A stretch of 64,000 bases of DNA, from contig JAFKFM010000011.1 in assembly GCA_017308135.1 (NCBI GenBank), forward strand, positions 310,001 to 374,000. The letters run 5' to 3'. The stretch is from Alphaproteobacteria bacterium. GTDB taxonomy: Bacteria > Pseudomonadota > Alphaproteobacteria > CACIAM-22H2. Shown here in pieces: positions 25,623-38,415 of this stretch (position 1 is the stretch's first letter; each line of letters begins with the position of its first letter). Position numbers and translations under genes: made by a program. The notes under the pieces were generated by a model. It made no database searches, was not told where the DNA came from, and saw only the letters and a program-made list of their open reading frames with translations.

Positions 25623-26915
25623 ATGACCAACGTCACCGTCGTCGGATCGCAATGGGGCGACGAAGGCAAAGGCAAGATCGTCGATTGGCTGTCGGAACGC
25701 GCCGAAATCGTCGTGCGCTTCCAGGGCGGCCATAACGCGGGCCACACGCTGGTCATCGACGGCGTGACTTATAAGTTGTCGCTGCTGCCGTCGAGCGTCG
25801 TGCGCAAGGGCAAGATCGGCGTGGTCGGCAACGGCGTGGTCGTCGATCCTTGGCATCTGCTGAAGGAGATCGCGGCGATCCGCGAAAAGGGCGTGGATGT
25901 CGGCCCGCATAATCTGCGCGTGGCGGAAAACGCCGCGTTGATTCTGCCGCTGCATGGCGAGATCGATCGCCTGCGCGAAGAAGCGCGCGGCAGCGCCAAG
26001 ATCGGCACCACCGGGCGCGGCATCGGCCCGGCTTACGAGGACAAGGTCGCGCGCCGCGCGATTCGCCTGTGCGATCTATTCGACGGGCCCACGCTCGATG
26101 CGAAGCTCGAAGAGCTGTGCCGCCATCACGACGCGCTGCGCAAAGGCTTGGGCTTCGCGCCGGTCGATCGGCCGACCTTGCGCAAGCAATTGCTGGAACT
26201 CGCACCCCAGCTCGCACCCTATGCCGATCCGGTGTGGCCGTTCCTGGGCGATTCCAGCAAGGCGGGCAAGCGCATCCTGTTCGAAGGCGCGCAAGGCGCG
26301 TTGCTCGACGTCGATCACGGCACCTATCCGTTCGTCACCTCGTCGAATACGGTGGCCGCGCAAGCCGCGACCGGTTCCGGCTTGGGCCCGCACGAAGTCG
26401 GCTACGTGCTCGGCATCACCAAGGCCTACACGACGCGCGTGGGCTCCGGCCCGTTCCCGACGGAACTGACCGATTCGATCGGCCGGCATCTCGGCGAGCG
26501 CGGGCATGAATTCGGTACCGTCACCGGGCGCGCGCGCCGCTGCGGCTGGTTCGATGCGGTGCTGGTGCGCCAGACCGTGCGCACCGGCGGCATTCGCGGC
26601 ATCGCGCTCACCAAGCTCGACGTGCTCGACGGGCTCGACGAGATCAAGGTCTGCGTCGCTTACGATATCGGCGGCAAGCGCTACGACCGGTTGCCCGCCG
26701 CCCAGCATCTGCAAGCGCAGGCGGCCCCGATCTACGAGACGCTGCCGGGCTGGAAGGAATCGACGCAAGGTGCGCGGTCCTGGGCCGATCTGCCGGCGGC
26801 GGCGGTCAAATACATCGTGCGGATCGAGGAATTGATCGGCGCGCGCGTCGCGTTGCTGTCCACCAGCCCCGAACGCAACGACACGATCCTGGTCGAGGAC
26901 CCGTTTGCCGATTGA
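25623..26915 (+). CDS. purA: Adenylosuccinate synthetase
   Basis: GTP-dependent enzyme of 430 residues that joins IMP and aspartate in AMP synthesis. It has the P-loop [12 protein letters not shown] near residues 7-18 with the catalytic Asp, QGGHNAGHT with the catalytic His, [14 protein letters not shown], and the late [13 protein letters not shown]. Length is normal. Five bases separate it from hisZ, so histidine and purine genes are co-transcribed here. Confidence 0.97.
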
Positions 26916-27005
26916 TTTTGTTGACTAAATCGGTTCGTTAACCAGTTTTCGACAAACACGGCTTAAATTCGGGAGATCGATCCGGACAAACGCGGAGGGC
27001 GGCCT

Positions 27006-29057
27006 ATGGCCGAACCGGCCAATCAACGCGACGACGACGACGAGAAGGGTGGCCCCGCCAAGGGGCCGTCCGGCACGTCCGTTTCGCTCGCGGGCCGGTT
27101 CAAGATCTATCCGTCGTCGCCCATTCCCGAAATGTCGACCGCCAGCGTGCGCGCCTATCTGGCGGTCGACGAGCGCGACACGATCGGCCAGCGCGTGGCG
27201 CTGATCTGCAGCCAGGAGATTCCGCCGCGGCTGGAGATGGCCAAGAACATCAAGGGCGTCGAGCGGCCGGGCCTGCTGCGGCTTTACGAATTCGGTCTGG
27301 TCGACTGGCCGGGTGCGTCGGCGCGGCGCTTGGCCTTCATTTACGATTTGCCCGAGGGCGGGCCGCTGTGGCGCGGCAACGGCCCGCGCGACGAATGGCC
27401 GGCCCCCCGCTTGCTGACGCATTTCCTACTGCCGCTCGCCAATGCGTTGGGCGAGCTGTTCCACCGCAACGTCACCCATCGCGGCATCCGCCCGACCAAT
27501 CTGTTCTGGCTCGACGAAGCGCGCACGCGCATCGTGCTGGGCCCTTCGTTCCACGTGCCCGGCGGCTTCGAACAGCCCGCCCCGCTGGAACCCATCGAAC
27601 GCGCGATGGCCGATCCGGACGCGCGCGGCTCGGGCACGCGCGAGGACGATATGTTCGCGCTCGGCATGACGCTGCTCGCCTTCGCGCAAGGCTTCATGCC
27701 GGGCCAAGGCATCGACGTGGACGAGCAATTCGCGCGGCGCGTGGATCGCGGCACGTTCGACTCGCTCGCCGACCTTACGCGTATCGCGCCGCAAGTGATG
27801 GAAGTGCTGCGCGGCCTGACCAACGATTGGGAACAGGACCGCTGGACGCTGGAAATGCTGAAAGGCTTCCTCGACGGCAAGCGCCAGCAGGTCAACCCGT
27901 CGTCGCCGCTGGTGTTGCGCGCGGCCAAGGGCTATCGCTTCGGCGGGCGCGAATACAAGACGCCGCGCGATCTGGCGCACGGTCTCGGAAGGCGCTGGGA
28001 AGCGGCGGCGGCCGAATTGCGCAACGGCAATATCGCGATGTGGGTGCGCAATACGCTGGGCGATCAGAAACTGCATGACCGCCTGAACGCGGCGGTGCGC
28101 GAACCCAGCGGCGATCCCAACCCGACCTACTCCGATGCGCTGACGGTGGCGCGCGCGTCGATCGTGCTCGATCCTTTGGCGCCGATCCGGTTTCGCGGCC
28201 ACAGCGTTCATGTCGACGGTTTGGGCACGGCGATCGCCGTCGCCATGCGCAAGCCTGGCGGTGGGCCGATTTTCGCTGACCTCATCCGCAGCCGCGTGAT
28301 CGGGCTATGGACGATGCTGCATAAATCGGCGGGCGGGCGCGGCTTGCCGCCGGCGGGCTTCGTCGAACGCTTGGGCAAATGGATCGAAGATCCCGCCCCC
28401 GGCAACGGCATCGAACGTGTGCTCTACGAACTTAATCCCAATCTGCCGTGCTTCTCCGAACTTGCGGCGGGCATGTGGGTGTCGGAACCCGATCAGGTGC
28501 TGGAGGCGCTGGAAGCTGCCGCCGGGTCCGGCCACAAGCCGATCGACCGGCACATTGCCGCCTTTCTTGCGGTCCATGCGGGTGCGGACCCCGCACAAAT
28601 TCGCGTGCTGATGAATCCCGAACAAGTCGACATGTCGGGCGGCATGTCGATCCTGCGCATGTTGTCGGATTTGCAGGAACGTTTCGGTCCGCCGATGGTG
28701 CCGCGCTTGACCGCGTGGTGCGCCACGCTGGTGCGCGGCTATGTCGACGGGATCAATCATTTGCCGCTGCGCCAATCGCAGATCGAGCGGCTCAATCAAG
28801 TCGCCGAAGAAGGCAATCTCAAAGCGCTGCTCGAGCTCGTCGATAACGAGAAAATGCGCGAGGTCGATCATTGGGGCTTCGACGCCGCCAAGGAAGCCTA
28901 TGTCGCGGCGGGGGCGGAAATGGTCGAGATTCGCGGCGGTGCGAAACAACGCGCGCATGCGGCGATGCTCGCGGGCAAGGAAACGGCCGCACTCACCTCC
29001 GCGTCGCTGTCGGGCGTCGTCGGTATCGGATCGATTCTCTGGCGGATTCTGTTTTAG
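27006..29057 (+). CDS. Membrane-anchored pseudokinase-like protein, function unknown
   Basis: Protein of 683 residues. Residues about 30-290 read as a eukaryotic-type kinase fold with broken chemistry. There is no glycine-rich loop and no clear VAxK lysine (VALIC, 64-68). The catalytic HRD is HRG (158-160) within HRGIRPTN, with Asn165 kept, and DFG is GPS (179-181). C-lobe marks survive: DDMFALGMTLL (214-224) for helix F and QDRW (277-280) for helix I. The rest is a helical domain I do not recognise, ending in a hydrophobic anchor (SLSGVVGIGSILWRILF). It follows purA by 90 bases and is 2 bases from a small membrane-protein gene. It is likely a scaffold or sensor rather than an active kinase. 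Confidence 0.75.
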   Translation: MAEPANQRDDDDEKGGPAKGPSGTSVSLAGRFKIYPSSPIPEMSTASVRAYLAVDERDTIGQRVALICSQEIPPRLEMAKNIKGVERPGLLRLYEFGLVDWPGASARRLAFIYDLPEGGPLWRGNGPRDEWPAPRLLTHFLLPLANALGELFHRNVTHRGIRPTNLFWLDEARTRIVLGPSFHVPGGFEQPAPLEPIERAMADPDARGSGTREDDMFALGMTLLAFAQGFMPGQGIDVDEQFARRVDRGTFDSLADLTRIAPQVMEVLRGLTNDWEQDRWTLEMLKGFLDGKRQQVNPSSPLVLRAAKGYRFGGREYKTPRDLAHGLGRRWEAAAAELRNGNIAMWVRNTLGDQKLHDRLNAAVREPSGDPNPTYSDALTVARASIVLDPLAPIRFRGHSVHVDGLGTAIAVAMRKPGGGPIFADLIRSRVIGLWTMLHKSAGGRGLPPAGFVERLGKWIEDPAPGNGIERVLYELNPNLPCFSELAAGMWVSEPDQVLEALEAAAGSGHKPIDRHIAAFLAVHAGADPAQIRVLMNPEQVDMSGGMSILRMLSDLQERFGPPMVPRLTAWCATLVRGYVDGINHLPLRQSQIERLNQVAEEGNLKALLELVDNEKMREVDHWGFDAAKEAYVAAGAEMVEIRGGAKQRAHAAMLAGKETAALTSASLSGVVGIGSILWRILF

Positions 29058-29059
29058 CC

Positions 29060-29545
29060 ATGGCCAAGCAACCCAAATCGGCGAAGAAGGGCCCCAGCGC
29101 CATGACGCTCGCCATGGCGGGGACGGGCGTCATCGCGATCGTCGCGTGGCTTGCCTATAACGTGCCGTGGCTGTGCCTGTTCGTGGTTGCGGGCTTCTTG
29201 CCCACGCTCGCCGCCGCGATCGTCGATCCCACGCGCCAGAAGCATGACGCGATCGCCGTGGGCACGATGAGCATGGGCGCGATGCTGCCCTTCCTGCTCG
29301 ACGGATTCGCGATGATGGGCCGCACCGGCGGGCGCGAGATTCTCGGCAACGCCTTCGCCTGGCTGTCGGTCTACGGGGCGGCCGTGTTCGCCTGGGGCCT
29401 GTGCTGGCTGTTCCCGATCATCGCGAACATCATCTACGAAAATCGCGCGCAGAACCGCTTGCGCCAATTGCAGCGCCGCCAAAACTCGCTCGAAACCGAA
29501 TGGGGCGAGCGGGTGAAGGAACTCGCCGACCTGCCGCCGCAATAA
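29060..29545 (+). CDS. Small integral membrane protein paired with the pseudokinase, function unknown
   Basis: Protein of 161 residues with a Lys-rich N-terminus (MAKQPKSAKKGP). There are about four membrane segments (about 15-34, 36-53, 70-88 and 99-120), then a charged, probably coiled-coil tail of about 35 residues rich in Arg, Gln and Glu. I recognise no family. It starts 2 bases after the pseudokinase stop, so the two are almost certainly made together. The C-terminal tail would be on the same side as the pseudokinase body if both face the cytoplasm. The next gene is convergent. Confidence 0.72.
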   Translation: MAKQPKSAKKGPSAMTLAMAGTGVIAIVAWLAYNVPWLCLFVVAGFLPTLAAAIVDPTRQKHDAIAVGTMSMGAMLPFLLDGFAMMGRTGGREILGNAFAWLSVYGAAVFAWGLCWLFPIIANIIYENRAQNRLRQLQRRQNSLETEWGERVKELADLPPQ

Positions 29546-37596: not shown

Positions 37597-38415
37597 ATGT
37601 CCAACTCCATCAACACCAATCTCAGCGCGATGGTCGCCCTTGGGTCGCTGCGCACGGCGGGCACGATGCTCGCCACCGCGTCCAAGCAGGTCCAGACCGG
37701 CTATCGCGTCGCCGATGCGATGGACGATTCGTCGACCTTCACGGTCGCGCAGGGCATCCGGGGCAATCTGCAGGCCTATCAGGCGGTGCAGGCGTCGATC
37801 ACCAACGGCACGGGCTTGGGGGCGGTGACAGACTCGGCGCTGACCAATATCTCGAACCTGGTCGGCAATCTTCAGGCGAAGATCACGCAGCTTGCCGACG
37901 GCGCGATCGGCAACGGCCAGCGCACGATCTACGCCGCCGATTTCAGCGCGATGACCAGCCAGATTTCGACGTTCATCGCCCAAGCGAACTACAACGGCGT
38001 GAATCTGCTGTCGAACAACTCGGCGGCCAAAACCTTCCTCGCCGACGTCAACGCGACGACGATCACGATGTCGAGCCGCTCGACGGTTCATACCGCGTTC
38101 ACGACTTTCGCGGCGTCGTCGGTCTCGTCGGTCACGGCGGCGACGGCGGCCCTCACCTCGCTCTCGACCTTCGGCAACGCCGTCTCGGCGGCGTTGGGCG
38201 GTGCCGCGGCCGATAGCCGCACGCTGCGCCTGCAAAGCAATCTGCTGAACTCGGTCGTCGACGCGACGACGACGGGTATGGGCGCTATGGTCGACGCCGA
38301 TATCGGCAAGGCCTCGGCCTCGACCCAGTCGCTGCAGGTCCGCCAGCAGCTGAGCGTGCAATCCCTTTCGATCGCCAACCAGCAGCCGCAGCTCATTCTC
38401 GGTATCGTGCGTTAG
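37597..38415 (+). CDS. Short flagellin
   Basis: Filament protein of 272 residues with conserved D0/D1 ends and little or no central variable domain. N-terminal marks are SINTNLSAMVALGSL, then TGYRVADAMDDSSTFTVAQGIRG. At the C-terminus ADIGKASASTQSLQVRQQL is followed by a short tail ending GIVR. It is rich in Ser, Thr, Ala and Asn and almost lacks Lys, as usual for flagellins. No other flagellar gene is in the window, so this is a stand-alone flagellin gene. It has its own promoter (37540) and terminator (38459). Confidence 0.9.
   Translation: MSNSINTNLSAMVALGSLRTAGTMLATASKQVQTGYRVADAMDDSSTFTVAQGIRGNLQAYQAVQASITNGTGLGAVTDSALTNISNLVGNLQAKITQLADGAIGNGQRTIYAADFSAMTSQISTFIAQANYNGVNLLSNNSAAKTFLADVNATTITMSSRSTVHTAFTTFAASSVSSVTAATAALTSLSTFGNAVSAALGGAAADSRTLRLQSNLLNSVVDATTTGMGAMVDADIGKASASTQSLQVRQQLSVQSLSIANQQPQLILGIVR

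Follow-up and report, generated by a model that had tools for sequence, protein, structure and literature searches.

Bacterial pseudokinases have hardly been studied, and only a few have a known process. SelO and SidJ are kinase-fold proteins which perform a non-canonical transfer. EssB/YukC, a membrane pseudokinase of Firmicutes, scaffolds the type VII secretion machine; for the DLHK proteins, which have no transmembrane region and are often fused to helicase/DNA2 parts, Arg-based ATP binding was proposed; in the GLW pseudokinases of Proteobacteria HRD is replaced by GLW and the Lys by a poly-Leu/Trp motif; and the actinobacterial MviN pseudokinase domain, ActPs3, is a catalytically dead kinase fold within a multi-pass MviN protein (all PMC12599244).

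The locus described here is a pair of adjacent genes, gene 1 and gene 2, within a window of 64,000 nucleotides, ie the whole stretch of alphaproteobacterial DNA that was analysed. Its features, all on the + strand, are as follows.

25623-26915, +, purA (adenylosuccinate synthase), a conserved upstream neighbour, given as context outside the module
26937-26943, +, GTTAACC element upstream of gene 1, resembling half a CtrA box and kept in close relatives
27006-29057, +, gene 1, a 683-aa tail-anchored pseudokinase (open reading frame with ATG start; full-length family HMM match; dN/dS)
27069-27881, +, predicted two-lobed kinase-fold domain, residues 22-292, catalytic residues lost (AlphaFold model, VIA-align)
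27477-27485, +, HRG replacing HRD, residues 158-160, with Asn165 retained
27540-27548, +, GPS replacing DFG, residues 179-181
27891-28991, +, post-kinase part, residues 296-662, of which 300-405 are common to DLHK-type kinases and the rest is family-specific
28995-29054, +, hydrophobic C-terminal tail anchor, about residues 664-683 (from sequence)
29060-29545, +, gene 2, a 161-aa polytopic membrane partner with a conserved RQxxL...WG tail (ATG start, 2 bases after gene 1)

Gene 1 resembles EssB/YukC in being a pseudokinase that is anchored in the membrane and degraded at all three motifs, but its accessory domains and partners differ, and Pfam scans of the window protein and nine members of its family gave no EssB match, though there may be a remote similarity. 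Like MviN/ActPs3 it is a bacterial membrane protein whose kinase fold is catalytically dead; no sequence link to that domain was found. Where the GLW proteins have their characteristic motifs, the gene 1 family has H-R-A/S/G and, at the Lys motif, VAL(V/I)C. The DLHK pseudokinases (eg Q9I0B5 of P. aeruginosa) have in common with it the H-x-x-I/L-R catalytic-loop Arg and degraded DFG and Lys motifs. They retain the HRD Asp, however, which the gene 1 family has lost in every member, and the gene 1 family is tail-anchored and lacks a helicase. The family is homologous to DLHK without being a member of it. We found no paper on the gene 1 pseudokinases, which are a new, undescribed family with a dedicated membrane partner.

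The predicted kinase fold and the paired membrane protein

Gene 1 was modelled with AlphaFold2 using 11 relatives (mean pLDDT 76). The predicted residues 22-292 matched WNK3 with a Z of 25.4 across 252 residues, and the JAK2 and TYK2 pseudokinases with a Z of about 24 (VIA-align). An earlier note on this DNA had recognised a kinase C-lobe only. The C-lobe was kept, with HRG, Asn165, GPS, DDMFALG (residues 214-220) and DRW (278-280) all at the residues given for them, but the full two-lobed fold was modelled, its N-lobe having five strands and helix C and lacking just the Gly-loop and the Lys. Pfam Pkinase matched the window protein at E 0.003, which is under its curated cut-off, and nine of nine diverse members, weakly (best E 2e-6); the resemblance to kinases exceeds chance. 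NCBIfam LanL covered the kinase part at E 7e-7, far below the LanL cut-off. Beyond such weak kinase matches the Pfam and NCBIfam scans of gene 1 gave nothing, and the Pfam scan of the nine members contained no helicase domain, only Pkinase-like and chance families.

The part following the kinase domain had been described as an unrecognised helical half. This holds for residues 406-660 approximately, which have no known sequence match and were found only in the gene 1 family, but not for residues 300-405, as residues 52-405 aligned with a Rhizobium DLHK-type protein (hhalign probability 99.2%, E 1.5e-19). When the C-terminal half was modelled separately, its pLDDT was 85.5. A PDB fold search with this half found no match (best Foldseek E 0.43), and its best VIA match, to 4cso OrfY with a Z of 5.8, was within noise. 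The membrane anchor proposed for the C-terminus is clear by hydropathy in 78 of 84 relatives and weak in the window copy.

The ATG of gene 2, at 29060, begins 2 bases after gene 1, as had been noted. Of 85 loci, 84 had sequence downstream of gene 1, and in 79 of these a gene 2 homologue followed it directly, mostly across intergenic gaps of -4 to +15 bases; 76 of the pairs came from direct calls, and HMM searching supplied the other three. Gene 1 stood alone at five loci, three of which (L122, L137 and L157) hold an additional copy in a genome where another copy is paired. The source genome has four gene 1 paralogues, each followed by a gene 2 homologue. No family in Pfam or NCBIfam matched gene 2. 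Comparison with two relatives gave dN/dS values of about 0.16-0.32 (gene 1) and 0.23-0.33 (gene 2), and both genes are under purifying selection as proteins. The conserved pairing, the predicted fold and the loss of the HRD Asp in 84 of 84 members bear out the two-gene membrane module built on a pseudokinase which the earlier note had proposed.

Distribution and co-occurrence with flagellar genes

Full-length gene 1 members were present in 83 of 241 sampled alphaproteobacterial genomes, spanning dozens of families, and, in a phylum sample of 199 genomes, in none of those outside Alphaproteobacteria. A single scan of genome contigs with one protein found close relatives only. The pair also occurs on Azospirillum plasmids, annotated there as "serine/threonine protein kinase" and "hypothetical protein"; the first of these names contrasts with a catalytic Asp found in none of the aligned members.

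The process served by the pair had been left as unknown. This now stands only in part, since the presence of the pair tracks flagellar genes. FlgI or Flg_bbr_C was found in 83/83 carriers (FlgI in 79, Flg_bbr_C in 82, at least one in all) compared to 72/158 non-carriers, with a Fisher probability of 1.6e-21 in which kinship among the genomes is ignored. PhaC, the non-flagellar control, was far more weakly associated (69/83 carriers, 90/158 non-carriers, p 5e-5). The relation runs one way: flagella without the pair are common, whereas each of the 83 carriers had at least one flagellar gene. The weakest carrier was G127 (pair at L131), in which FlgI was matched only partially and Flg_bbr_C not at all. 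Four other genomes (G032, G041, G115 and G194) had been considered flagella-less carriers by FlgI and were rejected as such, all having Flg_bbr_C genes.

In an endosymbiont order (37 genomes), hook/rod genes were present in all six intact carriers. One family of this order, f194, has three members, none with hook/rod genes, and in two of them (G477 and G478) only truncated remnants of gene 1 were found. The remnant in G477 (L172:3579-4562) is a 327-aa open reading frame in which the C-terminal portion of gene 1 survives, together with a faint in-frame vestige of gene 2. A further family, f54, was dropped as a case of paired loss on account of two Flg_bbr_C matches in G076. Two loci have co-directional contexts which, by reading of the sequences, we take to be flgN-flgK-flgL-(gene 1), at L046, and (pair)(pair)-flhA-motA, at L134. 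Two such neighbourhoods among some 30-40 non-purA loci are about what chance would give and are not significant alone. In the window itself a lone flagellin-like gene lies at 37597-38415, outside the flagellar clusters, which are carried by contigs C7, C8 and C10, and the 200 bases upstream of it do not contain GTTAAC.

We tentatively favour, at somewhat short of even confidence, the reading that the pair is an alphaproteobacterial inner-membrane module, ie a non-catalytic pseudokinase scaffold or sensor with a polytopic partner, most likely serving flagellated cells. The flagellar part of this reading is weakened because the statistic takes no account of phylogeny, which is its main weakness, and because many flagellated genomes have no pair; the near-exception G127 and the chance level of flagellar neighbourhoods weaken it further. 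It is quite possible, though we rate it as doubtful, that the pair, in the manner of EssB or MviN, is a membrane scaffold without catalysis which serves envelope, secretion or polarity functions, and that its link with flagella reflects shared ancestry only, both being found in free-living, early-branching alphaproteobacterial lineages. The core evidence for a pseudokinase with a membrane partner fits this too, as do neighbours that are mostly housekeeping genes rather than flagellar ones and the frequent lack of the pair in flagellated genomes. Shared ancestry would not lead one to expect that none of the 83 carriers is free of flagellar genes, that gene 1 has decayed alongside flagella in one lineage, or that PhaC, as control trait, is so much more weakly linked. 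The pair probably assists motile cells without enzymatic activity, a role that had gone unrecognised.

Loss of catalytic residues and proposed descent of the family

At position 160, the site of the HRD Asp, the 84 aligned members have A (36), S (15), G (12), N (10) or other residues (11), and none has D; at positions 158-159 the H is kept in 78 and the R in 59. The DFG site reads G-E-C or G-D-C in most members and G-P-S in the window copy, position 180 being E in 38, D in 26, P in 14 and Q in six. The Gly-loop shows no glycine pattern, a Lys is present near the beta-3 Lys region in only 5/84, and residues vary freely at positions 160 and 68. Asp215 of alpha-F is present in 84/84, and Arg279 and Trp280 are also kept. 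Judged from this alignment, the loss of catalytic residues is a property of the whole family. A single decayed or merely mutated kinase copy, with homologues intact at HRD/DFG, was ruled out by the missing HRD Asp in 84/84 relatives and the low dN/dS.

It is improbable, but conceivable, that the family is an atypical enzyme, with many members still binding nucleotide and carrying out a non-canonical transfer like SelO or SidJ. The acidic residue at position 180 in 64/84 members, Asn165 in 80 and Arg162 in 70 would suit such an activity, and the Arg-based ATP binding proposed for DLHK proteins (PMC12599244) offers a precedent; but the window copy has Pro at position 180 and no Lys, the Gly-loop is absent, and the free variation at positions 160 and 68 is unlike an active site. 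Binding of nucleotide or metal by the window copy, with its G-P-S, is unlikely on sequence grounds, whereas other members, with G-E-C or G-D-C, may still bind one or the other.

The Rhizobium protein aligned with residues 52-405 is encoded on a plasmid of Rhizobium sp. 11515TR (L164:6371-12643). Its 2090 aa comprise zinc-ribbon-like, kinase (HRD kept, GFG) and helicase-like parts, its gene adjoins those for a radical-SAM activating enzyme and an AAA+ ATPase, and it matches the description of the DLHK family in a 2025 review (PMC12599244). The best non-alphaproteobacterial match (L175:488-3127, genome G277; E 5e-28) was to an 879-aa membrane kinase. It has the kinase and post-kinase segments of gene 1 and a C-terminal hydrophobic segment, but its Lys, HRD and DFG are intact and it lacks the 406-660 part specific to the gene 1 family; it is the nearest putatively active relative found. 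Plausibly, the gene 1 family descends from active kinases of DLHK architecture, catalysis having been lost once and the 406-660 part gained, a direction that we infer.

The purA site, the upstream element and the proposed role

The earlier note had asked whether the linkage to purA recurs in related genomes. It does: purA is immediately upstream of gene 1 in 41 of 85 loci, and the gene order serA-hisZ-purA-(pair)-rpoH-rluD is recurrent in many families, serA-hisZ-purA-(pair)-rpoH appearing to be the ancestral site of the pair. In the window, a convergent threonine dehydratase-like gene stands in place of rpoH. A sensor of purine or adenylate state, in a functional operon co-inherited with purA, would account for that linkage but is very improbable, as no purine neighbours accompany the three extra copies of the pair in the source genome or many other loci, and an upstream element of the pair's own separates purA from gene 1. 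A gene of the source genome (L040:6720-8162), convergent to one of its paralogous pairs, is one that we take, from reading its sequence, to be SelO-like, ie of the AMPylating pseudokinase family; its position is probably a coincidence. In another genome (L047:2785-6901, genome G024) at least four similar proteins of 327-350 aa (MPESKAYELPSKEKYPELY...) are encoded in tandem, convergent to the pair.

The sequences upstream of 77 members were compared with those of 568 control genes of the same loci in an unbiased scan of 6-mers. GTTAAC was the top word, found in 20/77 members and 18/568 controls (p 2e-10, or about 8e-7 corrected for 4096 words). In GC-rich loci TTAAC-N6-TT was present in 16/51 members and 8/365 controls, and this gapped motif was mostly confined to the purA site (17/38, compared to 4/39 elsewhere). 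CtrA reportedly has an ancestral role in motility, going by the title of a 2012 paper by Greene et al. that PMC6180460 cites. The CtrA box is TTAA-N7-TTAA, with TTAA half sites (PMC6180460), and in the same genomes it preceded 12/176 flagellar-cluster genes and 5/365 controls. The enriched upstream motif is like one half of this box; its second half, TTTGCC, differs from the CtrA consensus. No GTTAAC-type motif was seen by eye upstream of the three paralogous copies of the source genome, and sigma-54-type promoter patterns were not enriched upstream of members. Because the full box is not enriched upstream of gene 1 (1/51 members in GC-rich loci) and the gapped motif is rare away from the purA site, control of the pair by a CtrA-type regulator is only a suggestion.

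For an inner-membrane module serving flagellated cells, the gene 1 protein would be cytoplasmic, with its C-terminal anchor tethering it to the inner membrane beside, and probably in complex with, gene 2 as its dedicated polytopic partner. Its kinase fold and helical half would bind partners or a ligand without catalysis, in the manner of EssB. The module would help to assemble, place or control the flagellum, or would serve a process coupled to motility, perhaps with CtrA-type control. Several diverged copies per genome, as in the source genome, would fit modules with distinct partners. The bolder proposal by analogy, that the pair is an ancient accessory to the alphaproteobacterial flagellum, or to the way it is placed or controlled, and scaffolds or gates a motility machine at the inner membrane as EssB does in type VII secretion, we consider rather unlikely.

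The pair offers a fixed membrane partner for a bacterial pseudokinase and a concrete, testable link with motility. If that link is true, it would add a missing flagellar part in free-living, plant-associated and endosymbiotic bacteria of the class. If it is false, the family would still be a clear line of DLHK-type kinases losing catalysis and becoming a membrane scaffold or sensor.
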